The notes beneath the pieces are model-generated. The model made no database searches and was not told where the DNA came from. It saw only the letters and a list, made by a program, of their open reading frames with translations. Shown here piece by piece: positions 2,016 through 60,849 of a stretch of DNA of 64,000 nt. The DNA lies in contig JAHLKH010000042.1 in the NCBI GenBank assembly GCA_025526915.1, positions 1 through 64,000 of the forward strand, in the 5' to 3' direction. Both the position numbers and the translations under genes were made by a program. The number at the start of each line of letters is the position of its first letter. Positions within the stretch are counted from its first letter, which is position 1. The stretch comes from Entophlyctis helioformis. Lineage: Eukaryota; Chytridiomycota; Chytridiomycetes; Chytridiales; Chytriomycetaceae.

Positions 2016-3657
2016 TCATCCACAGGCAGGCTCGTCAAACTCGGCATGATCGGCCTCGGCCGAAGGAGAGCTAAAGTCTTGTCTATATGCAGCGTCGTTG
2101 TAGTCGTCTTGGAGACGCAACAACGCCTTGCGTGAGATGCTCTGCGTAGGCGTAGGACGGCTGCGACTCTGCTTCGCCGTCTTGCCATCGCCTGCTACAG
2201 GCTTTGCTGTCTCTTCAGGCTTCTTTCGCGGAACAAATGTCGGCTGCGACGACCGAAGCGTCAGGTTGCGGAAAGGTCGCGATTCGTCTGGGCCGAGCGA
2301 GGCTGACGTATCGTTGCCAGTACCGTCATCTACACGTCCAGCGGCTCCAAGCCTGTCGGCATCTGTGTTGCCACCTCCAGTCCCCCAGGATGGCTGCGCG
2401 TCTGGCCTTGGAGATGCTGTTGTCGCAGCGGCGGCAGACTTTGGCTTGAAGCGTGAATCCGGGTCCTTGTCCACAACCACGCGGCGGTTCTCGAGGTCGA
2501 TGGTGATGACACGCCGCTGCTTTTTCTGTTCTGCAAGCCGCTCCTCCTCCTGCATCTTCTTGACAGCCAGCGCGCGCTCTTCGGGAGTAAGCCACTTGTT
2601 TGCCGCATCGCTCGCCAGATCAAAGTCGCTGGCTGTGTCGTGCACATGTGTGCGGGCTGTGCTGTTGCGATCGTACTCAAGCAGTCGCGCCTTGCGTTCT
2701 TCTGCCTTGGCAAACGCCTTGGCCGTCTCGGGGTCGTCTGCTGCAGCAAGAGCAGCTGCAAAAGCAGCATCTGCGTCTGTTCCGTCGGCGCCGTTGGGAA
2801 CAAGCTGCTCTGCGGCACGCTGTGCAAGATAGCCAAGCTGCTGCTCGCGCGAGATGACCAGATTGCCACAGCACGAGCACGGCCCCTCTGCCTCAAACTC
2901 GCAGATGATCTTGCCGCACTTGAGGCAGTTGGTCAACAGTCCATGCACCTCCGCTGACGCATGCGTGCATTCGGTGTCAGTGCCGTGCATCGATCGTCGA
3001 TGCATGCACCAAGCGGGTCCTGCACCAACAGATCTTGCTCACCCATGCATTCGCACACTGGTCTGCCGCCAAAGCCCGGTGGTGCCTTGCCGACCTGCTC
3101 CATCGCAGATCGCTGCTTCGCCTTCTTCTTGGCTTGTCGCTGCGAGACCTGGGGCGAAGGCCGCTGCTGCTGCTGTTGCGCATTGCGACTGTCGACCAAT
3201 GGGCTCTCTGCAACATACCCAAACCCCTGGACTGCGTCCATTTGCTGCTGCTGCTGCTGTTGCTGTTGCTGAAGGGCTTGCTGGGCAGCCTGCTGCTGCT
3301 GCTGGCGACGAGTGGTCGTGGCCGTTTCGGTCCATGCACCCTTGGTCTGCAGAGGAGGGAACCGCTTCAGCAGAAACTGCTGGATAAAGTCCAACGCTTC
3401 GGGCGTCTGGCCGAGCAGATCCTGTCCGATAGCATGCCAGAAGGGCATCATGCCCACCGCTGTCAGCGTAAGCACGCTGTCAGCCACGTCATTGCGCTGC
3501 AATCGCTGCAGACCTGGAAGTAGCTGGCCGTCTCCTCCTTGGACTCCATCGAGGCTGCAAGAGCGACGAGCTGCACCACATCTTCTTTGCCGAGGCTTCC
3601 GCCCATCAGCACCACCACGCGGCCAACCGCCCAGCTTTCGAGCACTGAGAACGACAT
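2016..3657 (-). CDS. TRIP4: Rqt4 / TRIP4 (ASC-1) C2HC5 zinc-finger protein
   Basis: Component of the ribosome quality-control trigger (RQT) complex with the Ski2-like helicase; in animals the ASC-1 coactivator. Exons 3514-3657, 3043-3421 and 2016-2953 join in phase (introns of 92 and 89 nt) to give about 486 aa. The N-terminus (residues 20-75) is a CUE-like helical region matching human TRIP4. A poly-Q stretch follows near residues 105-135. The zf-C2HC5 starts at VCECM just before intron 2 and continues as NCLKCGKIICE..GPCSCCG after it. A TRIP4-type linker with LLEYDRNS and VITIDLENRRVV follows. The ASCH domain of animal TRIP4 is absent, as in yeast Rqt4. The start is the Met at 3657, chosen because the reading frame upstream lacks similarity. 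Converges with the channel gene (75 bp) and diverges from the cyclin (139 bp). Confidence 0.9.
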
Positions 3658-12333: not shown

Positions 12334-15300
12334 TCACTCGGCGTTGATGGTGCCAGAAGATGTTTCAACAGGACCAGGACCGGCGGCAACAGCAGCAACA
12401 GCGGCAGCAGCAGCAGGTGCCGATCGCCCCTCGCGGCCATTGGTGAACAGCTGGTCAGAGAGACGCTCGTACGTCCATGCCGGCATTTTGTGTCGAGATG
12501 CAATAATGCCAATCGTTTCCTTGCGCGACGTGAACGGATGCGGCTCAACAAAGGTCCTGCCCTGGCCCGAGAAGAGTGCCGCACGATACGCGTTCATGGC
12601 TGTTGTGCGTACGAGCGGACCCAATGCTGCTTTGGACACCACGGCGCGGCTCTGCAATGGTCCAAATTGTCGCACCTTTGCATCCACACTTTCGTGTCAG
12701 TTTTCCGTTCCGTATCTTTCCAGACCACACATGACTGCTGTATATTGCCGGAGCAGCAACTTACAGTGTCGTCTCGGTACGTGTCCACGGCATACATGCC
12801 GTTTGAGAGTGGCGTGATGGCTATCTGCGCATTGCCAAAGTCACCGCCAATCGTGTCCCATCGGTAGTCGCGATAGTGCTCGTTCCAGATGATGTGCACA
12901 TGGTCGTTGCCAATATGGCGTTTCTGCAACCCAAAGCGCATTCCATTCGTCAGAGTCCATCGTGAGTCTGCTGCTCGTGATGCACAGAGATCACAAGGCA
13001 TGCGAACCTTTTTGAGCTGCTTTGGGTCAGCTGGATCTGTCGGCATCTTGGTCACGTCGTGATACATGATCTCGAGCGTCGATGTGCAGTAGTATGGCGC
13101 GACCCCGCCATTGACCATGCTTCGTTCCAGACCACCCAGGTAGCCAGGATGCTTGGCCAGATCGACCTGGCAAGGCATGCGCAAAGTGCCAATACTCACC
13201 ATCAGTCTACACACAATGGCATCTTGCCAGAGACAGCGAGCAGCATCGCACCTCCCATCCAAGACTCGACACAAACTCTTCGTACTCGACACTGCCGCAG
13301 CTGTTGCGGAATATCGAGTACTCTTCCTCCTGTCCAGGGGCGACGTAAATGACAGCAACCTTGGCTACCTCGCGTCTGCCATAAAACGAACATACATACA
13401 TACATGCATGCTTGCAAGATCAATACATGCTTTCTGTTTTCACACAGTCAAGACGGGCCAGTCTGCAAGACAACTCACGAATACTTTCGGTCCAGTCCCT
13501 TGATGTCGCGGATCAGACTGGGTGTTTTGGACAGCAAGTGGAAGTTGCCCGTCTTGAGCGCATCAAATGCAAGGAATCCCATCTGGCCGAGCAGAAGGCG
13601 TGCGCTTTGGAACAGCGCCGAAACGTCCTTTGGCGTGGGTGGCTCGGCACACATGTATCCACGACGACTCTCTGACGCCTTTTCCAGGAACGACTGCCGG
13701 AACGTGTATGTCGATATGCCCTCATCGTGAATCTGGTTCCTCATGGCTTGCGAAATGTCAGAGAGCCCTGGCCGCTCATTGATCAGCTTGAGCGACGGCG
13801 CGTTGAGCTTTCCTGTCTCTGTCTCCTTCAGGCAGTCGGGATGCTTGTCGCCAATACTGTTGGCCACGATCGGTTGCAGTGTCAGAGCATGCACAGACTA
13901 TGTGCAGCATTCACGCAACAGCACGCTTGCCTGACAAGCAGCTGCTCCAAAACGTCCGGTCCCTTGAACGATGAACGCGCATTGTCCTGGTCGTCGCCCT
14001 CCTCGGGCATATCCCTGCCAAGATCATCGCATGAGCACCTTGTACAATGAGCCTGTCAATCAAACATGCCTTTGAATGGTGAATGCGGGTCTTACCATGA
14101 CGATGTCACAGCCGTATGCTCGTTAAACTTGAAGCCGGCAGCAGTGCCAATCGGTTTCTGCGGTGTGGGGATCTGAGGCGGTGGTGCGCCTTCCATGTCT
14201 TCGACTTCGCTTAGGGATCGATAGAAGGGCCGCATATCCCACACATACTTTCCGGTCGGATCGCGCATTATGATGCGGCATCGCGATCCTTGGTTGGTGT
14301 CAGAAAACGAGAGGACGACATGGTCGCCGACTGTAAAGAACTGGTGCGAGTCGAATTCTTCGTCGTCAATCGGCGGCTCGGATATCAGCCTAGATGCAGA
14401 ATGCAGAGAGTCAGTGCCAAGACAAGTTGGTGTTGTTGGTGCTGCGATGAGCGAACATACGAATGCATCATTGCTGGTCCGTTGATGGGCGAAAAGTTGT
14501 CAATGTGATGCAGCAAATGGATAAGAGCATTCTCCGCACACGACTGCAGATCCAAGGTACGCGCGCAGTAAGTCCGGCAGGCTCTATGCTGAGCATGTTA
14601 TGATGGGATACAGAAAACTTACACGAATCGACTTGAGCAGGCTGCCAATCTCCTTCTCATCCAGCGCATTCTCGCCCCGCTGTTGGTGTCCAGCTCCAGC
14701 ATCCGAGTCTATCCGTTGAGGGTCGCTTGTAAGCGGCATGCCAGACGCTAGCATAACGTCCTGCACTTTGATGCAATCAACTTGCCACAGTCGGCCGATC
14801 CTGCTCGCTCAGGCCCTGCTCCGTTGCCACTCGCATCAGCGGTGTACTGGGACGCATTCACAGCATGGCAACGAGCAATCGTGATCAGTGTGTAGCTCGG
14901 CTGTTGTTAGCAGCAAAGCAGCCTTACAGTGGCGTGCATGGCCTCTTCGATGACCTCTGACACACGCAGCGCGATGTTGGGGTTGGACATGAGTGCATGT
15001 GGTACGGCGCTCAGCCAGTCCACAAGGCAGCGGAACAGAACCGAGACAATCATGGCTGATTGACCAAACCAGGCGTTGTCACGAGCAGGCGTACTGCGTG
15101 TCAGCCAATGGAAAGCATGCCACCTTCTTGCTTCGTCTGTCCCCACCTGATGCGCCGATATCTATCGACTGCTTGCGCGACCGGTCCTCAAACTGCAGGT
15201 TCTCGGAAATGGCAAAGATGATGCGGTCGATCACATGGTGGGCGATGTCCTGATACCAGCAAGGGATCGACAGGCGTGTTGTCAGACTTTTCCCATACAG

Positions 15301-22760: not shown

Positions 22761-24382
22761 ATGCAGCAGCAACAGCAACAGCAGCAACAGCAGCAGCTGG
22801 TTGAGCAGGCGCCTCCTGCCAAGCGCCAGAGCATGTTCAACCCCGACAATATGCGCTCGTGGAAGCTCGTCTTCACACCCATCACCGTCATGACCATTTG
22901 CGGCGCTTTCGCCATCGTGCTGCTGCCCATCGGCGCCATTCTGTTCTCGGCCAACTCGCAGGTGTGTGTGTGGAGTGGATGCTGTGGCTGCTGCTGCTTG
23001 CAAGAGGCCCTGCGAACAGCGGGCTGATATCTTGCGTCGATCGTCCTGTCTGACCGCCATATCCTCCTCCATCCTCTGGCCGGCCAGCTCAACGAGGTGT
23101 CGATGGACTACACTGAATGCGCCACAACTGCCGGCCCAACCTTTGCGGCGCCGGCATCGACAGTGTCGGGCGTCAGCTCAGTGTCGCAGTGGAAGTACGA
23201 CACGGCGTCCAAGACCTGCACGATGCGCTTCAAGGTGCCCACGACGCTGCGCAGCAAGGTGTTCATGTACGTGCGCATCGGCAACATGTACCAGAACCAC
23301 CGGCTGTACGTCAAGTCGCTGGACTCGGATCAGCTCGCCGGCAAGGTTTATCCGTCGGCGCAGGACTTCCCAACCAGTCTGCAGACGTCGTGCGCGTTTC
23401 TGCAGTACGGCAACTGCGATGTCGCTGCAGGCGTGTCGTGGGCGGGCAACTCGCTGTCGCACGCGGCCAGCAACCCAGACTGCATGGCCAACCCGCGCGC
23501 GATCGTTATCCAGAACGCCAACTCCAAGGCACAGTACTATCCTTGCGGCCTGATCGCCAACTCCATGTTTACAGGTACAGCGTCATACGGCAGACTCGCA
23601 GCGGCAGCTGACCGGCTCATGTGGACTCACCCGTCGGATGGATGCTTGGACAGACTCAATCTCGTCGCTCTCGTGCGTCGGCGCATCATGTCGCATCCCC
23701 ACTTATACATTCTCAGAGTCTGGCATTGCTTGGCCAGAGGACAAGTCCCTGTACAAAGTCTCAGGCTGGGCCTCTGACCCGTCGCTCCAGTCGCAGATCC
23801 CAACGATGCTCATTCCTCCGCCGCAGTGGCGCCAGGCATGGCCGGAGCTGTGGGGCAACGGATACAACGCGACCAATCTGCCTGACCTTGCACGGTGGGA
23901 GAGATTCCAGGTGTGGATGCGCAAGGCTGGTTTGCCCCAGTTTAGAAAGCTGTGGGGCCGCAATGACAACGAATCACTCGACGCGGGCGAGTGGGAAGTC
24001 AGCGTCATTGATGGTAAGCGTGTCGCGTCTTTTTGCGGCTGGCGGCTCATGTCCCCACACTTACACACACCTCGATGGTGGCCATGGCCATGGCGGGCTC
24101 TGACAGTGTGGGACTGCCGTCGCTTTGATGGCACCAAGGCCCTCGTGTTCAGCGAGGTTGGCTTGATGGGTCCCAAGAACTCGTTCATTGGCATTGCATT
24201 CCTGACAGTCGGCGGCTGCAGTGCGCTCTTTGTGTTCCTTGTCGGCTTCTACAGACCACGGTAAGATGATGAACGCTGCTGTGCGTGCGATGGACCGCTT
24301 TTGCTGATCCTCTCTCCTGCCGATCTGCAGCAAACTCGGGGACCATGCACAGCTGTCTTGGAACAAGCAGAAGGTCGAATGA
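22761..24382 (+). CDS. CDC50: CDC50/Lem3/TMEM30 P4-ATPase chaperone subunit
   Basis: Beta subunit needed for exit and activity of P4-ATPase phospholipid flippases. Exons 22761-22961, 23088-23574, 23717-24013, 24107-24260 and 24331-24382 join in phase to 396 aa. Poly-Gln N-terminus, then SWKLVFTPITVMTICGAFAI (TM1), a large exoplasmic domain with YTEC.., MRFKVPTTLRSKVFMYVRIG, NMYQNHRLYVKSLDSDQLAG, YYPCGLIANSMFT, IAWPEDKSLYK and WMRKAGLPQFRKLWGR, then NSFIGIAFLTVGGCSALFVF (TM2). This is the complete family layout. The start is the first in-frame Met; a missing short upstream exon is possible because the frame is open for 14 codons before it. Confidence 0.95.
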
Positions 24383-28753: not shown

Positions 28754-30255
28754 TCATTGGCGCAGAGACATGTACGATCCCAGCACACGCACATCGATGC
28801 AGAAGTTGTTGAGATCGCCAATGGCGTCTTTCAGCGGCGTGTCCTGCGGATGGCCCTCGCACTCGACAAAGAACACATAGTGCCACATGCGCTGGCCAGA
28901 CGGCCGCGAGTCGATCTTGGTCAGATTGATCTCGCGCTGCTTCATGACGTTGAGCGCATCGCAGAGTGCGCCTGGCTGCCGGTGATCGACCGTGAACTGG
29001 ATGAGCGTGCGGTCCCTTCCAGTCGGTGCATCCATAACATGGCCAATGATGAAGAAACGAGTCGTGTTGTCTGCCATGGCGTTTGTTGCAGGTTCGGTCA
29101 GAGGATGAGTGGCATGCCTTGCAGATCGCCCGAGTGCCGGGCTGCGATTAAAGGCACCACAGGCATGCACAGCACTTACTCTTGAGATCTTCAATGTTCT
29201 CGTCAAGAACGTTCAGGCTGTACAGGTCCGCACAGACCGCGCTGCAGATGGCAGCGGCGCCTGCCTCGTTGGCTGCAATATCTGCAGCCTTGGATGTCGA
29301 TGGCGCATTGACACGCTCGACATAGGGCAGGTTGGCATCGAGCCACTTGGAACACTGTCCAAGTGCCTCTGGATGGCTGTACACGCGCTTGATCTTGTCC
29401 TTGCTAGTGTTGGACAGCAGGCAATGATGCACGGCCAGATACGTCTCGCCGCGCACCATGACACGAGTCTCGGGTGCGGCAGCCACAAACCAGTCGAGCG
29501 TCTGCTGCACTGTGCCAAACGTGGAGTTTTCAAACGGCACCAGACCGTATGTCACGCTGCCTGACTCGACTGCCTCGAACACGGCGCGGATCGTCGACTT
29601 TTCAATGTACGACAGCGAGTCGCCAAACTTTTCGTATGCGCTCTGGTACGAGTATGAGCCGCGCGGGCCGAGAAAGGCAATGGTCGTGTCTTTCTGAAGG
29701 GCGATCGACGCTGACATGATCTCGCGGTAGATAGCCTGGATGGCGCTGTTGGGCAGCGGGCCATGGTTGAGACGCTCGGCCTGGAGAGTTGCGAGCAGTG
29801 GGCCGCACAAGCGTGTCAGCCACGACATGCACGGACGGGCTGTGTCTGTGCACACAGATCCATCGATCCGCATCCATCCGGCAAGCACGTGCCTGGGCAA
29901 AGACCTCCTGCTCGCGCTTTGGGATGTGCGGCTGCGAGATGATACTGCAGCGGCCAGACATGCACGGACACGCAGCGTCGTCAGCAGCCGTCAAGCGTCA
30001 CCAAGAGAGCGTAGCACGGCACAAGAGCTAAGGCGGCGATGTGCCGAGCAGAATAGTGCAGTGCAGTGCAGTGCAGTGCAGAGGCGAGCAAGGCAGCAGG
30101 TTCATGTGGTTCACCGCCGCTGCAAAGACGCACCCCAGGTCTTTCTTGGCCGAGCCAATGCTGATGCTCACAGACGCACGCTCGTTGAGCAACTGCACGA
30201 GGCGGGTGTCAATGTCGTCGATGCGGCTGCGAAGCTGCGGCAGGCCGTCTGTCAT
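28754..30255 (-). CDS. pheA: Bifunctional chorismate mutase-prephenate dehydratase (P-protein)
   Basis: Converts chorismate to prephenate and then to phenylpyruvate in phenylalanine synthesis. Exons 30134-30255, 29893-29944, 29180-29780 and 28754-29070 join in phase to 363 aa. Residues 1-85 are an AroQ chorismate mutase: LPQLRSRIDDIDTRLVQLLN, ERASVSISIGSAKK, KREQEVFAQ and LPNSAIQAIYREIMSASIAL. Then the dehydratase: IAFLGPRGSYSYQSAYEKFG, YGLVPFENSTFGTVQQTLDW and the catalytic TRF at residue ~260 (NTTRFFIIGH). Last is an ACT domain with TVDHRQPGALCDALNVMKQ and IDSRPSG, the Phe-binding ESRP-type motif. The fusion order is that of bacterial P-proteins; most fungi have separate Aro7 and Pha2. Intron 2 has a gc..ag border. 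The acidic residue usual before the KRE helix (YDPERE) is replaced by Ile. Start 49 bp from RIM15. Confidence 0.92.
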
Positions 30256-30304
30256 GCTGGTCGGCTGGCTGGTCCTTGGTTGCGTTGGCGAAGAGTCGGA
30301 GAAG
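30256..30304. promoter_or_regulatory. 49-bp divergent start-codon spacer
   Basis: Between pheA and RIM15. Contains gctggtcggctggctggtcc. Confidence 0.55.
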
Positions 30305-33300
30305 ATGGCCAATCGCGATGAGCTTGATCCAAACCAGATCGTATTGGCCACTCCTTGGCCAATCATGGAACACATTGAGCAGCCTCGGCCATTGTCAGGT
30401 GCAGCAGATCCAGCAGCAACAGCAGCAGCAGCACAGCCCGATGATCGGCCGGCTGTGGTCTCCGGCATAGAGGACGACGGCGGCGCGCAGAATAGGGCAT
30501 CTGCTGGTGCTGGAAACCAGTTGCTGGATGACTGTCCGCTCGACTGGTCGGCCGATGATGTAGACGACTTTAGTCTGGCAAGCGTGACGGTCGCGCTGTG
30601 CAGCCCTCGGAAGAGCACAAGCAGCGCATCGAGCGATCGCAGACAGCGGCTGCCGCCACCTCTTGACCTCACCTCCAGCTTCGGGCCGCCCTTTCCCCAG
30701 CCTCTGGCCCGCGTGTACGAGGAAGTCGACACGTCCAGAGACGGCGGCGATGTTGCGGCACACCGCGCGGCTTCGTTTGCAAAGACACGCTCGGCTTCTG
30801 TCTCGGCCACTGCTGCAGCACAGCAAGCATCGCTGTCGGCATCCACATCGGCTTCGGGGTCGCCGTCGGCATCAGTACTCCTTCTCAAGCAAGCAGAGTA
30901 CACTGACACGCCGCACTCTGATGCTGCTGCTGCGCCAGTGTCGGCTGCTTCGGGGACAGCATATGCTGCGCCACCTGACGACCATGATTCCCAAACATCG
31001 TCGTTTCCGCCGCATCCAGCCTCGGGCAGCGACAAACCATCCTCATTGGGTTTGTATCTCAGCAATATCCAGCAGCAACCACCGCCGCCACCACATGCCC
31101 GATCGTCGCGAGCATCCAGCGCAAGCAAGTCTTTCCACGAACGCAGCATATCTGGCCCGCCTGCAAGCCCGCTCCGAAACCTGAGCATCCCAAGATCCGT
31201 GTCATTTCGTGGCCCAAAGAGCGCCGACATTGGCGGTGGCCGCAGAGACATGTCCGCATCGCCTGTTGGATCGTTCCCGACCGCATCAACGCAGGGCATT
31301 CCGCGCAGCGCAGTCAGCAGCAGCGTCTCAAACGTCAGGGTCGACGCCCGCCAGTCGAGCACCAGTATGCGATCGTCCCAGATCATCGACGACCGGCTTG
31401 CAACGGACGCGTCCATGTACTCGCCATTCCATGGCCAGATGCACATCCCTCAGTCGCAGTTGACTACGCAGTTCCATCAGCAGCATCAGCAACAGCGGTC
31501 ACAAGCTTGGTCCACAGCCAACTCATTCTCGCAACTGCACGACGGCTCAGGTTCATCACGGCCCGTGCACGGATCCAATCCAGCATCATCAGTCGCCATC
31601 CCAGGATTGTCGGCAAATGGCACTGGATGTGCAACGACGCCCTCGTCGTCATCTGCAGGGACCCCAACAAAGTATGCACCGCGTAGGCGGCGACATTCGC
31701 TGCAAGAGAAGCGAGGCTCGGTCTCCTCTCAGGCGTCCACGCCCCTGTACGGCATCTACTTTCCGCCCCAGCCGCAACAGCACTCAATCACAGCAGTCGC
31801 AGTCACAGCAGTCACAGTCGCAGTCGCAGCACCACCAGAACCAGCTTGGCGTGTATGGCTACTACCCGTACCGATCATCACGTGCAGCATCGGTCTCGTC
31901 AGAAGCATCCTCGATCATGCCGAGCTTCATGTCAATCCGTGTTGTTCCAGATCCGTCAGACACTAACATCTACACGTCTGTTGGCGGCATCACGCACCGA
32001 TCGCCAAGCATAGCACCGAGTATGCGCGAAGGGATGGGGTCTTTTCCAGTGACACCGTTGTCGCCCATGTTCCCCGGCGGCATGTTCTCGTTTCCTGTTC
32101 CGACGCCGCAACAGCCGCAACAGCCGCTTGATCAGCTGTCCGTCTCGTTCAATAGCAGCCATACGCCAACCCGCCATCGCCGCATCACCAGCCCAAGCAT
32201 CCCTGTTACCTCGCTGGCCGCAGTAGGAATGTTTGCGGGTACGGCAGAGCTGCTGCTTTGGGATACCCAGGGACTGGCACTGGCACCGGCACAGATCAGC
32301 TGGGATCAAGATCGGCACCCTTCAAGCGCGACCAGTCCCAATCGCAGCGGCCGTTCTCGGGAGGTGCTCTTCCGTGGCGCATTCCAGAAAACCAAATGAG
32401 CTTTGCAAGCTCCATGACCGACGACTCGCTGTGGGCCATGGGTCCGTCGGCCTTTGCCATGGCGATGGCAGACGACACTGCATCGGCGCAGGCTGAATCA
32501 GAGTTCTGCGCGGATCGAGTGTGCACGCGTCTCAGTCTGTGGCATGGCTTCCACAAGTGCGGAACAGCATCGATATGCACGGCATGCCGGTCGGAGTCAC
32601 ATGGGGCGGCATCCAGATCGAGTCTGCGCCGACTGCGTTTGAGTTTCTGGATCCGTCCGTGTCGTCAGACCAGTTTGACGTGTCGCGTCTGCTGCTGCAG
32701 GAGCTCATTGCAGCCAAAACGACTGCCGATCATGCCATCCGAATGCTCCTTGGCCTGCCCAGTGAGATGGTTAACAGCGACACGTCCATCAACGAGAATG
32801 CGGTTGGGACCACGGGCACTGTGTCAGGTGGTGCTGCGGCTGGCAGTGCTCAAGTCATGGATCGCGACCCAGGCCTGTCTCGTGACACGCGGTGGCTCAA
32901 CAGTCAGGTGCAAGATGACAGAGCAGGGCGGGTCACCGATACGCAATCTGCAATCGACCCAACACCAGAGAACCGACCTGTAGCGTTGGAGTCCGCAGGC
33001 AACATTGGTGCAGGCTCGTCCTCTTCTCGCAAGCAGTCTGCCCCGCATGCCAGCACCATACCGCAAGATCAGTCCATTGGCAGCCCTCTGCGCAAGTCAC
33101 ACGACGGCCTCGCCAGAAAGCAAGCCTTGTCCATTCCAAGAGTTGGCCGCAGTCTGTCATTGGTGAGCCACCAATGCGCAATGCTTTTCGCTTGCATCTG
33201 TCACACCACTTACATCTGCCATTCATCCGCCAGCCTCGTCGCACGACGTGTTCCTTGAACGCGTTCAGACAATGGCTCGCCTGATTCTGCAGACGCCGTA

Positions 33301-45002: not shown

Positions 45003-45055
45003 TCTGAGCTGGCTTGCTTGTCGGTCGCTTGTTTGTCAAACGCTCGGAAAGCGCC
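45003..45055. promoter_or_regulatory. 53-bp divergent start-codon spacer
   Basis: Between DLT1 and DNAJC17. Contains tgtcggtcgcttgtttgtc. Confidence 0.55.
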
Positions 45056-46423
45056 ATGGCAACCAGCGCAGACGTCGACTACTACGAGCTGCTGGGTCTG
45101 GAGCCGACGGCCACGGCCGCAGAGATAAAGCGTGCGTACAGGTGGGTGCAGGTGCAGGTGCGACTGAGAGTGCAGGTGCGGGTGCAGGTGCAGGTGCCAT
45201 TGTACGGGGCTGACGGCCGCTGCAGAAAGAAGGCGCTGCTGTGCCATCCCGACAAGGTTGGCCCCGACGACCTCAAGGCCGGTAAGCAAGCCTTTCATGC
45301 CTGTGTGTGCATGCCTGTGCCTGTGTGTGCATGCATCTGCCTGCCGACGCACCCGCTGACGCACCTGTTGATGCAGCCAGCCTCTTCCACCAGCTCACCG
45401 AGGCCTCGCAGACGCTCTCCAACGAAGCGTCGCGCAGGGCATACGATGACCTGCACAAGGCACGGCGCCAGCAGCAGGCACGCTTCAAGGAGATGGATGC
45501 CCAGCGCCAAAAGACCAAGCGGGATCTGGACGAAAGCGAGGCGGCGTGGAAGCGCCAGCGCACAGGTGCAGCCTCTGCCGAGCTGCAGCGCAAGATGGAC
45601 ATGGAGCGGCTGCGCGAAGAGGGGTTTGCCAGCCGACAGGCGCTGGAGCAGCAGCGCAGGCAGGCGGCCGCGGCTTCGGTGGCGGTGGCACAGTCGGTCC
45701 AAGAGGCGAGAGCTGCCGTGGCAGCCGCAGATCTCATGGACTGCACCGTCAGGATCAAGTGGAAGAGGGGTCTGGCGTGGGAGGCGACCGAGGACAGTCT
45801 GCGCACGCGCATCAAGAGCCTGGGCGGCGTGGCTGCATCGTCGCTGGACAGGATCCTCGTGGCCAAGAGCGGCAAGCGCGTGGCGACGGTCGTGTTCAGA
45901 GATCTGTACGGGGCCGTAAGTGGGCCGGCTGGACGCGCTCGCCCTGGCTGCATTGTCTGCTGGTCGAGGTGCCCGACTGACACGGTGCACTGGCTGCCGG
46001 TGTCTGCAGTACGCAGTCATGCAGGCAAAGCAGCAGGGGACGTTTGACATGCTCCGCGATCTGACAGTCGAGTGGGCAGCCGCGTCGCCGCCCAAAGCAC
46101 TGGCGTTCATGGCAACGGCCCTGTTGAGCAGCGATGCACCGGCCATGCCCTCGACAGCGGCGTCTGGAACGGCAACACCACCAGCCGCAGCTGCAGCCAT
46201 GCCCTTTCCTCGGTTCATGCCCACCACTGCATCGCGGTCGTTCATGCCCGCCAGCTTTCCCATGGCGAATTCATCTGCAGCTGCATCCACAGACGAGTAC
46301 GAGGAGTTGACCCTGCGGCGCATGCGACAAACAGAACGGGAGACGCTTGAGCGCGAGATTCTGGAAGCAGAAGCAAGAGAAGAACAGGAACAGGAACAGG
46401 AACAGCGGCAGCGGCAGCAATGA
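45056..46423 (+). CDS. DNAJC17: DNAJC17/Cwf23-like J-domain splicing factor
   Basis: Spliceosome-associated J-protein. Exons 45056-45141, 45226-45281, 45377-45915 and 46010-46423 join in phase to 364 aa. J domain: DYYELLGLEPTATAAEIKRA, KKALLCHPDKVGPDDLKA (HPD present) and FHQLTEASQTLSNEASRRAY. Then a charged coiled region (KEMDAQRQKTKRDLDESE), an RRM-like domain (CTVRIKWKRGLA.., VATVVFRDLYGA) and a Gln/Glu-rich end. J plus RRM in this order defines DNAJC17. Intron 1 is made mostly of GTGCAG units. Confidence 0.92.
45142..45225 (+). repeat. GTGCAG-rich intron 1 of DNAJC17
   Basis: The 84-nt intron consists largely of imperfect GTGCAG hexamers, so it offers many cryptic gt and ag sites; the real borders are fixed by the in-phase joining to KKALLCHPDK. 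Confidence 0.85.
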
Positions 46424-56930: not shown

Positions 56931-58970
56931 CTACTTTTTATTGGAGATGGCCGTCTTCCACTGGAAAAAGTCGCACCGGAACTCGTTCACGGCTTGGCTG
57001 GCCTTGGCTTGATGGCGACTGCCTGCGCCACTTGCATTGGACTTGCTCGATGCTGCATATGCCGGTACATCCGTTTCTGTGTCTTGATCGTCACTTCCGG
57101 TCGTACCACCAGATTTGGCAGACCCTACAGACCCTGATGCAGGCTTAGTGCGCATGCCATCAAAGTTGACTGCACTCGACACGCCAACAGGCCGCTGACA
57201 GAGATAAAAATGACGTCCTTTTGTTGGGCCAGACTTCTTGACGGTCCATTCCTTGCACGGCTCGCCGTGGTGGCAAACAGGAATGGCCGGCGGCTGGAAC
57301 AGCTGTTTCCATGCACTTGCTGCCTGTGAGCCGCTTTGAGTAGCTGGTGATGCACCTGTTGCCATCTTGGCAGCCGCCGAGTCAGCTGGACGCTGTGCTT
57401 GCAGATCAAGGCTCGAATCTGACTTGCTAGGTGTTTGAGGTGCCTCGGAATCAGGGCTTTGCGTGGATGCCTGCCGGGCCTCCAAAGGCGTTGTTGGAGT
57501 GGACGGCCGCACAAGAAATGCGGAGAGTTTCATCTGGCCTTTGTTGGCTGTGGCAGCCACCTTTCCGCGTTTTGGTGCGCTTGCCACAGCGATGCTGCTT
57601 GAAGGCGCACTGCGTTTTCCCAGAGTCGAATCGGCGTTTGTTGGCAAAGACAACTGCTGCTGCGGCTGCTGCGGCTGCTCTGCCGCTTCCGAGACCGAGT
57701 CTGCCTGAGATGGCTTGGCAAAGAACGCGTGCAGCTTGGTTATCCGAAACTCGCTCCAGTAGCAGCTGCACAGTCGTGGCGGGTGATATTGATCCTTGTC
57801 ATCACTGCCGGCACTGGCCGTTTCAGCAAAGATCTCGCATGCACTATCGAGCTGGAACTCGGCCATGACAGGTGCATGATCGCTGCCCATGACGTCTGCA
57901 AGGATGCCTGCTTCTGTGAGCGAACCGACGAGGCCAGAAGACACAAGCACAAAGTCGAGTCGAGTGCCAAAGTTGGACTCGCGCGCATTGATTAACGTGT
58001 TCCAGCACGAAAACGCCTTTTCAGCGGTTGGGTGCCTGTGTCGAAACGTGTCTGTCAAGGGCCCACGCGGCGCAAGCAGCGCATCAAGCCACTGGCGTGC
58101 TGGCGTCGCCTGAAAGTCGGCAATTCCGAGATCGCGCATGGAGCGAGCAGGATCGCAGTGGTCGATGGGCCTGTGGATGACATTCAGGTCACCCACAAGA
58201 ACAACTTGACGGCCTTGATTGAGCAGCGCGTCAATCCGCAACCGGACGGCTTTGTGGAAGCGCATCTTGAATGCCAGCCGCTCTTCGGAAGCGTCATTTG
58301 GAAAGTATGCGTTGATGAGCACAAACTGCCCGTGATCTGTCACCACAAGTCGTCCTTCGGAATCCAGATCCTGCATCTCTGACAGAGAAAAGTGATCGCG
58401 CAGGCACTCGTGGATGGTGTCGCTGCTGTTGTTGGTGCTGCTGGTGCTGCCGTTGATGGCGGTGGATGGTGATGGGATGCGCCATAGGCCAGAGAATCCC
58501 TCTTCGGCGTCGACAACAGCCAGATGGGATCGCACATAGGTCACGACACCCGAGTATCCCTGCCGTTTCTGGCATTCAACGGCACATTCAGCATTCACAG
58601 TGTTCGCCAAGGAGTGCGCACAACACGGCGGCGCCAACCTTGCTGAACGAGAAGAAGGCGTGGAAGCCCGGCACGTTGGCCATGTCGGCGTCGATCTGCC
58701 TGCGCGCGACCTTGAACTCTTGAAGGCACACAATGTCTGCGTTCAGCGAGTCGATGATTCCGCCAAACGAGCGGTGGGCTGCCCACGCCGGATACGACTT
58801 GAGTGTCTTGGCACCCTGCAGCATTGCATTGCATTGCATCCCATCCCATCATATGTGAGCGAGCGAGCGGGCAAACGAGTGACGCAGCGCATAGGGTGGC
58901 TCGCAGGCAGGCTGACGTTAACATTCCACGACAGGATGCGCAGACGGCGTTTCGTCAGTTTGTCGTTCAT
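56931..58970 (-). CDS. APN2: AP endonuclease 2 (APEX2/Apn2)
   Basis: Class II abasic-site endonuclease/3' phosphodiesterase. Exons 58917-58970, 58627-58815 and 56931-58568 join in phase to 626 aa. Exonuclease-endonuclease-phosphatase fold: RILSWNVNGAKTL, NADIVCLQEFK (catalytic Glu), RQGYSGVVTYVR, LINAYFPND, VVLVGDLNVIHRPIDHCD (Asp/Asn), SNFGTRLDFVLVSSGLV and VMGSDHAPVMAEF (Asp-His). A linker with GQMKLSAFLVRPS resembles the PCNA-interacting (PIP-like) box Q-x2-L-x2-F. The C-terminal GRF zinc finger is CHHGEPCKEWTVKKSGPTKG, RHFYLCQRP and CDFFQW. Start codon 52 bp from CSTF1 on the other strand. Confidence 0.96.
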
Positions 58971-59022: not shown

Positions 59023-60849
59023 AATGGACGGCGACGACTATGACGACCCGTTTGACAGACAGCAGATGCCGCAGAGCCAGCTGCTGCCGCTCATTGTCAG
59101 GTAGGCGCGGCCAGTATCTGCCTGCTAATGAGATGCGTGCCCTGCGAGCACGGCTGACACTCTGCGCGGGCATCATCAACAGCCAGTTGAAGCACTATGG
59201 GTTCATGGCTGCTGCCAAGGCCGTCGCCGAGACAGCCGAGGTTGCAGTCGGCAGCATCGAGCAGTCGTCTCGGCTGGCGCATCTGTGCTATGCGGGCAGG
59301 CAGGCCAAGGAGCTGCAGGGCGAGGCCGACGACGACCTACTGGACGTCATGGACGGCGCAGGCGCAGGCAGCGCGGCTGCTCTTGGTGCATCTGGCGCCG
59401 GGCTCGGTGCTCTTGCTGGTGCCGGAGCACCAGGTGCAGCAGCCCCAGCCACGGCAGGTCTCGGCGACGAGGTGCTGGCGATTGCAGAAGGCACCATGCG
59501 AGCCGGTCAGTCGGTGCTGTGGATCTGCCTGCATGTGGCATGCACGATCGGCTGACGGCCCTGCTTGTCCGCCACCCGGCCGCAACCCGTGCGTGCCACC
59601 ACAGAACCGCGGCCAGTGCCCGACTACAAGTCGTGGTTTACAACACAGCACCGCTACGAGTGCCGAACAGCTGCATTCAGCGGCGACGGCAAGCTGATTG
59701 CGACAGGATCCATGGACTCGACCATCAAGCTGCTGGACGCCAAGATCATTGTGGACCAGCACACCAACAGCAAGTCGGAGGAGAAAAAGGTCATCAAGAC
59801 GCTGTACGACCACACGGCGGCTGTCAACGAGGTGCAGTTCCATCCCAACGGATACGTGCTCGCGTCGTGCTCGGACGACTGCAACATCAAGCTGTTTGAC
59901 CTGCAAAAGTCGGTCACCAAGCGCGCCTTCCGATACCTGCCTGTAAGTGTCCAGCCACGCCGCACCTTGTCCGTTTCCATCCGCGTACTGACGAGTCGAA
60001 CACCGCCGATGATGTCTGGCCGGCTGCTTGATGCGCTGCCGTGCACACACTTGCAGGACGCCTATCCGGTCAGATCCATCAGTTTCCATCCGAGCGGCGA
60101 CTACCTCATCTCGGGCACAGACCACCACGCTGTGCGCACATTTGATATCCACAACATGCGCTGCTACATCCCGCCGAACCCGCAGGACCACCACGATGGC
60201 CCGATCCTGCAGGTGCGGTACTCGCCCACAGGCACCATTTACGCGTCGGCGAGCGTCGACGGGTGCATCAAGCTCTACGACACCGTGTCGGGCCGATGCA
60301 TCAACACGATCGCCAAGGCGCACGGCGGCATGCCTGTCACGAGCCTCGCGTTCTCAAGAGCTCGCGGTTCTTGCTGTCGACGGGCATGGACTCGATCGGC
60401 AGGCTGTGGGACCTGAATTCAGGCAAAGTCATCATCACATATGAAGGCGCCAAGCAGACGGTACGCTCTCGCTTGGCCCAGCATGCATGGATGGTACCGC
60501 ACGGCATGGTGCTGACACGCAGGCGGGGTTGGCACGACGTTGCTGGCGTCTACCAGACGGACAAGGCGAGCATCGTGTTTACACACACTGAAGACTATGT
60601 CATCAGCACCGACGAAGAGACGAACGGGTTTGTCATTTGGAATGCACGGACCGGCGCGTTCCTCAGACGCGTCAGCGGACACAACCGGCGGCTGCATGCC
60701 ATTGCGGCCAGCCCCGTCGATCCCGGTTTCGTGACGTGCAGGTGCGCTCCCTTGTCCATGAATGCCCATCGCTGATGTTTCCGAAACCTCGCTGGACTAA
60801 CACCCCATGCAGTGAGGATGCACGTGCCAAATACTGGGGCGTGGAATAA
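59023..60849 (+). CDS. CSTF1: Cleavage stimulation factor subunit 1 (CstF-50)
   Basis: WD40 subunit of the mRNA 3'-end cleavage complex. N-terminal dimerisation region: SQLLPLIV, then LTLCAGIINSQLKHYGFMAA. WD repeats: YECRTAAFSGDGKLIATGSM, HTAAVNEVQFHPNGYVLASC, VRSISFHPSGDYLISGTDHH, ILQVRYSPTGTIYASASVDG, CIKLYDTVSGRCINTIAKAH, FLLSTGMDSIGRLWDLNSG and SIVFTHTEDYVISTDEETNG, ending DARAKYWGVE. This follows human CSTF1 closely. The junction near 59100 is unclear (the frame moves by one base; a 37-nt intron is possible). Near 60352 one A is missing in TTCTCAAGAGC, which breaks the frame. The stop TAA at 60847-60849 is part of an AATAAA. Confidence 0.93.

Follow-up and report, generated by a model that had tools for sequence, protein, structure and literature searches.

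The P-protein of the chytrid Entophlyctis helioformis, a member of an early-diverging fungal family with probable bacterial ancestry

Introduction

How did a chytrid fungus come to possess a single gene that joins an AroQ chorismate mutase, a prephenate dehydratase and an ACT domain in the order of the bacterial P-proteins? Such a gene occurs in a 64,000-nt stretch of Entophlyctis helioformis DNA (hereafter, the window). An initial annotation set it against the separate Aro7 and Pha2 of most fungi, and offered two alternative origins: horizontal transfer followed by intron gain, or an ancestral fusion lost in Dikarya. PMC5982333 describes a Rhizophagus irregularis protein, ESA16252.1 (CM_2, PDT, ACT), as bacterial in origin and present in further fungi, the gene having been acquired from bacteria by fungal progenitors; that non-Dikarya fungi possess the fusion, and that it is of bacterial origin, is therefore already known. 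In the present study, the E. helioformis gene is placed within this family, and its relationship to the Pha2 of Dikarya and to a second, stand-alone dehydratase of chytrids is addressed.

Gene structure and genomic context

The P-protein gene occupies positions 30255-28754 on the minus strand and consists of four exons (Table 1), whose in-frame splicing yields a chain of 363 residues. The deposited E. helioformis protein P0001, the top database match, contains this chain without any difference as its residues 41-403; the public annotation therefore likewise assigns the mutase exons and the dehydratase to one gene. The deposited model is 40 residues longer at the N-terminus. This extension is predicted with a pLDDT below 50 and lacks a counterpart in Polyrhizophydium stewartii P0002 (362 residues, 74% identical over the full length), which starts at about the same point as the 363-residue chain; the start at 30255 is therefore likelier. 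The additional upstream stretch of the deposited model (30256-30375, minus strand) overlaps a 644-residue open frame on the plus strand (30032-31963), for which no Pfam match was found.

Table 1. Exons and introns of the P-protein gene and neighbouring frames in the window
Feature	Position	Strand	Description	Basis
Exon 1	30134..30255	-	Start codon; beginning of the AroQ mutase domain	Splice model; CM_2 exon match 30130-30234; same chain as deposited P0001
Intron 1	29945..30133	-	189 nt, GT-AG	Splice model
Exon 2	29893..29944	-	Central segment of the AroQ mutase, 17 codons plus a split codon; GC donor at its end	Splice model; P0001 chain
Intron 2	29781..29892	-	112 nt, GC-AG	Splice model; join as in deposited P0001
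Exon 3	29180..29780	-	Remainder of the mutase domain; larger part of the dehydratase domain	Splice model; Pfam
Intron 3	29071..29179	-	109 nt, GT-AG	Splice model
Exon 4	28754..29070	-	Remainder of the dehydratase domain, then ACT domain and stop codon	Splice model; Pfam
Neighbour frame	56934-58742	-		Pfam match
Neighbour frame	23028-23774	+		Pfam match
Neighbour frame	12597-13364	-		Pfam match
Neighbour frame	59556-60413	+		Pfam match
Neighbour frame	2019-3038	-		Pfam match
Neighbour frame	45008-45916	+		Pfam match

Elsewhere in the window, 6 of the 20 long frames tested have a Pfam match, and all six are eukaryotic neighbour frames (endonuclease/phosphatase with a GRF zinc finger, CDC50, Rap/ran-GAP, WD40, TRIP4-type zinc finger and DnaJ); Rfam and tRNA scans of the 64,000 nt returned nothing. 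Given the strong similarity to bacterial P-proteins (48% identity to P0119), one might suspect that bacterial DNA has contaminated the assembly or that the gene model is a chimera. The three introns, the 171,654-base contig with its eukaryotic neighbour genes, and the existence of chytrid proteins with this architecture at 74% identity all speak against such an explanation, whose probability we regard as negligible.

Domain architecture and active-site residues

Pfam matches on the 363-residue chain, all above the cut-off, are CM_2 at 8-88 (72.8 bits), PDT at 92-269 (202.2 bits) and ACT at 289-345 (32.4 bits). The predicted structure of P0001 (13-row alignment, mean pLDDT 81.0) shows three mutase helices (45-80, 89-102 and 109-127, P0001 numbering) followed by a dehydratase fold and then an ACT fold. 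Pfam and structure thus agree on an AroQ mutase, a dehydratase and an ACT domain in that order on a single chain; together with the four exons and the identical deposited chain, this bears out the bacterial P-protein order within one spliced gene that the initial annotation had described.

Among the mutase models listed, P0001 scores best with CM_P2 (NCBIfam TIGR01807); its 61.2 bits lie below the cut-off of 69.55, so it is called ‘nearest CM_P2’ and is not filed as a member. The planctomycete P-protein P0119 of Poriferisphaera corsica, a bacterial non-enteric protein (CM_P2-PDT-ACT) with the same domain order, scores 90.8 bits with the same model and, unlike it, the chytrid gene contains introns. 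P0001 also falls short of the enteric PheA model NF007910 (154.9 bits against a cut-off of 577), and the ARO7-type model TIGR01802 does not match the P-protein gene and is absent from the 21 NCBIfam families listed for P0001.

Domain order and most catalytic letters are shared with Escherichia coli PheA. The mutase catalytic positions of the E. coli K-12 enzyme, which we take to be R11, R28, K39, D48, R51, E52 and Q88, are conserved in the alignment except for D48, replaced by I. Of the dehydratase letters, S208 and the catalytic T278 (TRF motif) are preserved and E232 is replaced by P. The two ACT motifs presumed to bind phenylalanine, GALV and ESRP, appear as GALC and DSRP, and the D at the first letter of the latter is found in 26/31 fungal rows; feedback by phenylalanine through the ACT domain is therefore likely. 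The N-terminal helical domain would convert chorismate to prephenate, the dehydratase domain would convert prephenate to phenylpyruvate, and L-phenylalanine binding at the ACT domain would exert the predicted feedback.

The last mutase position (E. coli Q88) separates the fungal proteins from most bacterial non-enteric ones: all 31 fungal rows have Gln, whereas the bacterial rows have Glu in 47/53 and Gln in 3/53. This is a fixed active-site change in the fungal clade and, by analogy with work on the E. coli and yeast mutases, may widen its pH range.

Distribution among fungi

The P-protein search matched 2807 proteins. The best 120 comprise 107 with early-diverging fungal names (one counted only through the genome code Hompol1, which we take to be Homolaphlyctis), 12 without an organism, and a single bacterium, P. 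corsica (P0119). We assign the named fungi to Chytridiomycota, Blastocladiomycota, Mucoromycota, Mortierellomycota, Glomeromycota and Zoopagomycota. No Dikarya name was seen among these 120 best matches, and no non-fungal eukaryote among their named rows; the database includes EukProt entries. In UniRef, several of the 120 already go under the name bifunctional chorismate mutase/prephenate dehydratase.

The mutase domain is present in 118 of the best 120 matches. The two others, P0109 and P0111, begin in the last part of the mutase and therefore look like truncated gene models. In Absidia glauca, a loss of the mutase was considered and set aside: P0109 starts (MSASIALQKD) inside the conserved mutase end, which makes a truncated gene model likelier.

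The E. helioformis gene is thus an ordinary member of a known P-protein family of early-diverging fungi. R. irregularis ESA16252.1 (PMC5982333) and P. stewartii P0002 have the same CM_2, PDT and ACT single chain, and apart from the unconserved N-terminal extension of the deposited Entophlyctis model there is no notable difference. Of the early-diverging fungi, which the initial annotation had suggested surveying, the best 120 matches thus include many with the fusion, and any impression that it is isolated or surprising gives way to this distribution and to the bacterial transfer reported in PMC5982333. The statement that most fungi use separate Aro7 and Pha2 applies to Dikarya and fails for the early-diverging fungi among the best 120 matches. 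The yeast-based picture is adjusted in consequence: separate Aro7 and Pha2 look derived, and the bacterial-type fused enzyme has been kept by named members of six early-diverging fungal groups (best 120 of 2807).

Origin of the fungal P-protein

In a full-length tree of 31 fungal and 53 bacterial P-proteins, all 31 fungal rows form one clade (SH-aLRT 100), the inner branches of which mostly match the fungal phyla. A careful full-length tree of 71 rows, obtained by removing 13 rows from the 84-row set, again unites its 27 fungi (100/100). ESA16252.1 itself is not among the tree rows. The separate domain trees recommended by the initial annotation agree: the fungal rows form one clade in the mutase-only tree (31 rows, SH-aLRT 95, from only 100 columns) and in the dehydratase-ACT tree (16 P-protein rows, 100/99). 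The mutase and dehydratase halves thus have a common history, consistent with a gene that arrived already fused.

In the rooted full-length trees, the fungal clade sits among bacterial P-proteins, a nesting that depends on a root of our choosing and that is in line with the bacterial ancestry proposed initially. The root consists of nine rows from a Pseudomonadota-centred search. They represent the same phylum as L024/G005, a genome that carries the label Gammaproteobacteria and has a P-protein that groups with an Opitutaceae row.

The identity of the donor is less sharply defined. Fungi group with Planctomycetota at 89/65 in the 71-row tree; a grouping with Kiritimatiellae/Lentisphaerae is not rejected on the same set (p-AU 0.177); fungi, Pha2 and Planctomycetota unite at 45/0.9 in the dehydratase set; and the 100-column mutase-only tree gave no donor placement. 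Bacterial rows are the best matches from 294 genomes around one of Phycisphaeraceae, 288 around one of Kiritimatiellae and 60 around the labelled-Gammaproteobacteria genome (162/294, 276/288 and 42/60 of which, respectively, matched at the cut-offs), plus 80 loci retained from among the matches listed in a further scan; since they were drawn from sets centred on these three groups, other donors are little sampled. From these sources 142 bacterial P-proteins were extracted in addition to P0119, and the 53 used in the full-length tree are mainly the top-scoring ones.

The data fit one ancient acquisition of an already fused bacterial gene followed by vertical descent. According to this explanation, which we consider very probable, an early fungal ancestor would have taken up a bacterial gene that already joined AroQ mutase, dehydratase and ACT and was of the non-enteric type found in Planctomycetota, Kiritimatiellae, Lentisphaerae and similar groups; the fused gene would then have been inherited vertically while gaining introns. 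Transfer and ancestral fusion, presented initially as an either/or, would each be correct in part: transfer into an early fungal ancestor and subsequent vertical descent fits the data, and the opposition between the two falls away.

A recent transfer from bacteria to this chytrid or its close relatives only would account for the bacterial domain order and linker. However, rows from chytrids to Zoopagomycota and Mucoromycota fall in one clade, and among the best 120 of 2807 matches it is further chytrids that come nearest, at 74%, against 48% for the first named bacterium. The single fungal clade thus disfavours a chytrid-only transfer, and we judge a recent origin highly improbable. Somewhat less remote, though still unlikely, is a eukaryotic gene older than fungi that was lost in other opisthokonts, with no transfer into the fungal stem. 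It would equally produce the vertical pattern within fungi, and the trees sampled fungi and bacteria; against it, the named organisms among the best 120 matches are fungi and one planctomycete only, in a database with EukProt entries.

Relationship to the Pha2 of Dikarya

The fused enzyme of early-diverging fungi opens the history of this core pathway to testing: was Pha2 formed through loss of the mutase domain? Saccharomycotina Pha2, unlike the chytrid P-protein, lacks a mutase domain and begins shortly before the LGP motif. In the careful dehydratase-ACT tree, the 12 Pha2 rows form the sister group of the fungal P-protein dehydratase (99/97; 98/97 without four long-stemmed Pha2 rows), and a 100/100 branch separates the pair, on the P-protein side, from the stand-alone type. 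The initial annotation had set its reading against a dehydratase placed firmly within fungal Pha2; the fungal P-protein clade instead excludes Pha2 (100/99), the chytrid dehydratase being sister to the Pha2 clade and not inside it. This position suggests that Pha2 is a P-protein without its mutase, and such a loss is, from these sequence comparisons, probable.

Pha2 may alternatively be of separate origin, the fusion having been lost whole in Dikarya. Approximately unbiased tests leave room for this: trees holding Pha2 with the stand-alone dehydratases are not rejected (p-AU 0.141; 0.225 without the four long-stemmed rows), nor are trees uniting fungal and bacterial P-proteins without Pha2 (p-AU 0.142), and in a quick 85-row tree the branch joining Pha2 and fungal P-proteins reaches an SH-aLRT of only 90. 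Against it stand the sister-group support cited above, the rejection of fungal and Planctomycetota P-proteins united without Pha2 (p-AU 0.0105), and the rejection of Pha2 with the second chytrid dehydratase (p-AU 0.0002). On balance, a separate origin appears doubtful, though a substantial possibility.

The Pha2 rows comprise 11 named Saccharomycotina and one without a name (P0351), so that Dikarya are sampled through Saccharomycotina-type rows only; we place all names in the 120 listed rows of the Pha2 search in Saccharomycotina, the remaining rows having no name. Three rows (F_P0007, L124 and L144) were skipped in the dehydratase set, their motif having been missed by the cutting pattern. 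Of the 85 rows, 17 are absent from the careful tree: 12 are bacterial dehydratases, 10 of which sit on long branches or belong to a group with a long stem, and the other 5 come from the 12-row Chloroflexota set, 3 of them lacking an organism name.

A second dehydratase and the wider pathway in chytrids

The E. helioformis assembly (29,569,594 bases, 482 contigs) was searched for ARO7 and PHA2, as the initial annotation had advised, and the former was found. An ARO7-type chorismate mutase gene with several exons lies on contig C47 at about 100.5-101.8 kb (L012). The four exon matches of TIGR01802 in the genome are all on this contig; each alone is below the cut-off, and the joined C-terminal part reaches 206.5 bits against 170.9. 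Its PDB matches are yeast and plant enzymes. CM_2 matches in the genome at E ≤10 are confined to two exons of the P-protein gene, and prephenate dehydrogenase gives one weak stretch on C120 (25.2 bits, cut-off 26.5).

In place of PHA2, the only other dehydratase found in the genome is a stand-alone, Chloroflexota-like one. This 308-residue protein is encoded with introns on contig C206 at about 22822-24105 on the plus strand (L011, 3323-4606); splicing gives exactly the deposited P0121 chain (100% identity). Like the Chloroflexota dehydratases, P0121 has a PDT domain, with the same predicted reaction as the P-protein dehydratase; unlike the P-protein, these enzymes have no mutase and lie on another dehydratase branch (100/100). 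Among the matches listed, P0121 itself is followed by nine further chytrids with names, two rows without one, and then 108 rows; the 10 of these 108 that name an organism are all Chloroflexota (Anaerolineales, Villigracilaceae, or simply Chloroflexota/Chloroflexi). The second chytrid dehydratase groups with seven named Chloroflexota rows in the careful dehydratase tree (95/77), and with the Chloroflexota set in the quick tree (84). No paper on this enzyme was found among open-licence papers.

Since an ARO7-type mutase and a stand-alone dehydratase accompany the P-protein, two routes to phenylpyruvate seem, from gene content, to coexist in E. helioformis. The P-protein would act beside the second dehydratase and an ARO7-type mutase that would also feed tyrosine synthesis. 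A P-protein accompanies the P0121-type enzyme in 6 of 10 chytrids (Entophlyctis, Polyrhizophydium, Homolaphlyctis, Borealophlyctis, Phlyctochytrium arcticum and Powellomyces hirtus). The other four, Batrachochytrium salamandrivorans, Boothiomyces, Blyttiomyces and Nowakowskiella, have the P0121-type dehydratase and no P-protein among the best 120 of 2807 matches, and its replacement by the Chloroflexota-like enzyme is possible in them. Batrachochytrium groups with Entophlyctis in the second-dehydratase tree (100/94), so a Batrachochytrium P-protein would be expected near the top of the ranking; its true absence there is plausible, judged from the best 120 matches, among which gene models may be missing.

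Taken further, the dehydratase step of phenylalanine synthesis in fungi may have been remade from bacterial components on two or more occasions: once through a P-protein that reached an early fungal ancestor and subsequently shed its mutase to become the Pha2 of Dikarya, and separately through entry of a Chloroflexota-type dehydratase into chytrids, of which at least six species now have both enzymes and where it perhaps displaced the P-protein in Batrachochytrium. We give this combined scenario somewhat less than an even chance. The origin of Pha2 and the Chloroflexota-like chytrid dehydratase are the subjects most worth further study.

Two minor observations concern the host. A GC-AG intron occurs in both E. 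helioformis dehydratase genes (intron 2 of the P-protein gene, 29781-29892, and the intron before about 4452 of L011), and the deposited P0001 and P0121 use the same joins at these introns. NCBI files the species under Chytridiales; among the matches listed, its two dehydratases have their nearest counterparts in Polyrhizophydium and Homolaphlyctis, which we take to be Rhizophydiales-like, and its placement in Chytridiales may need revision.
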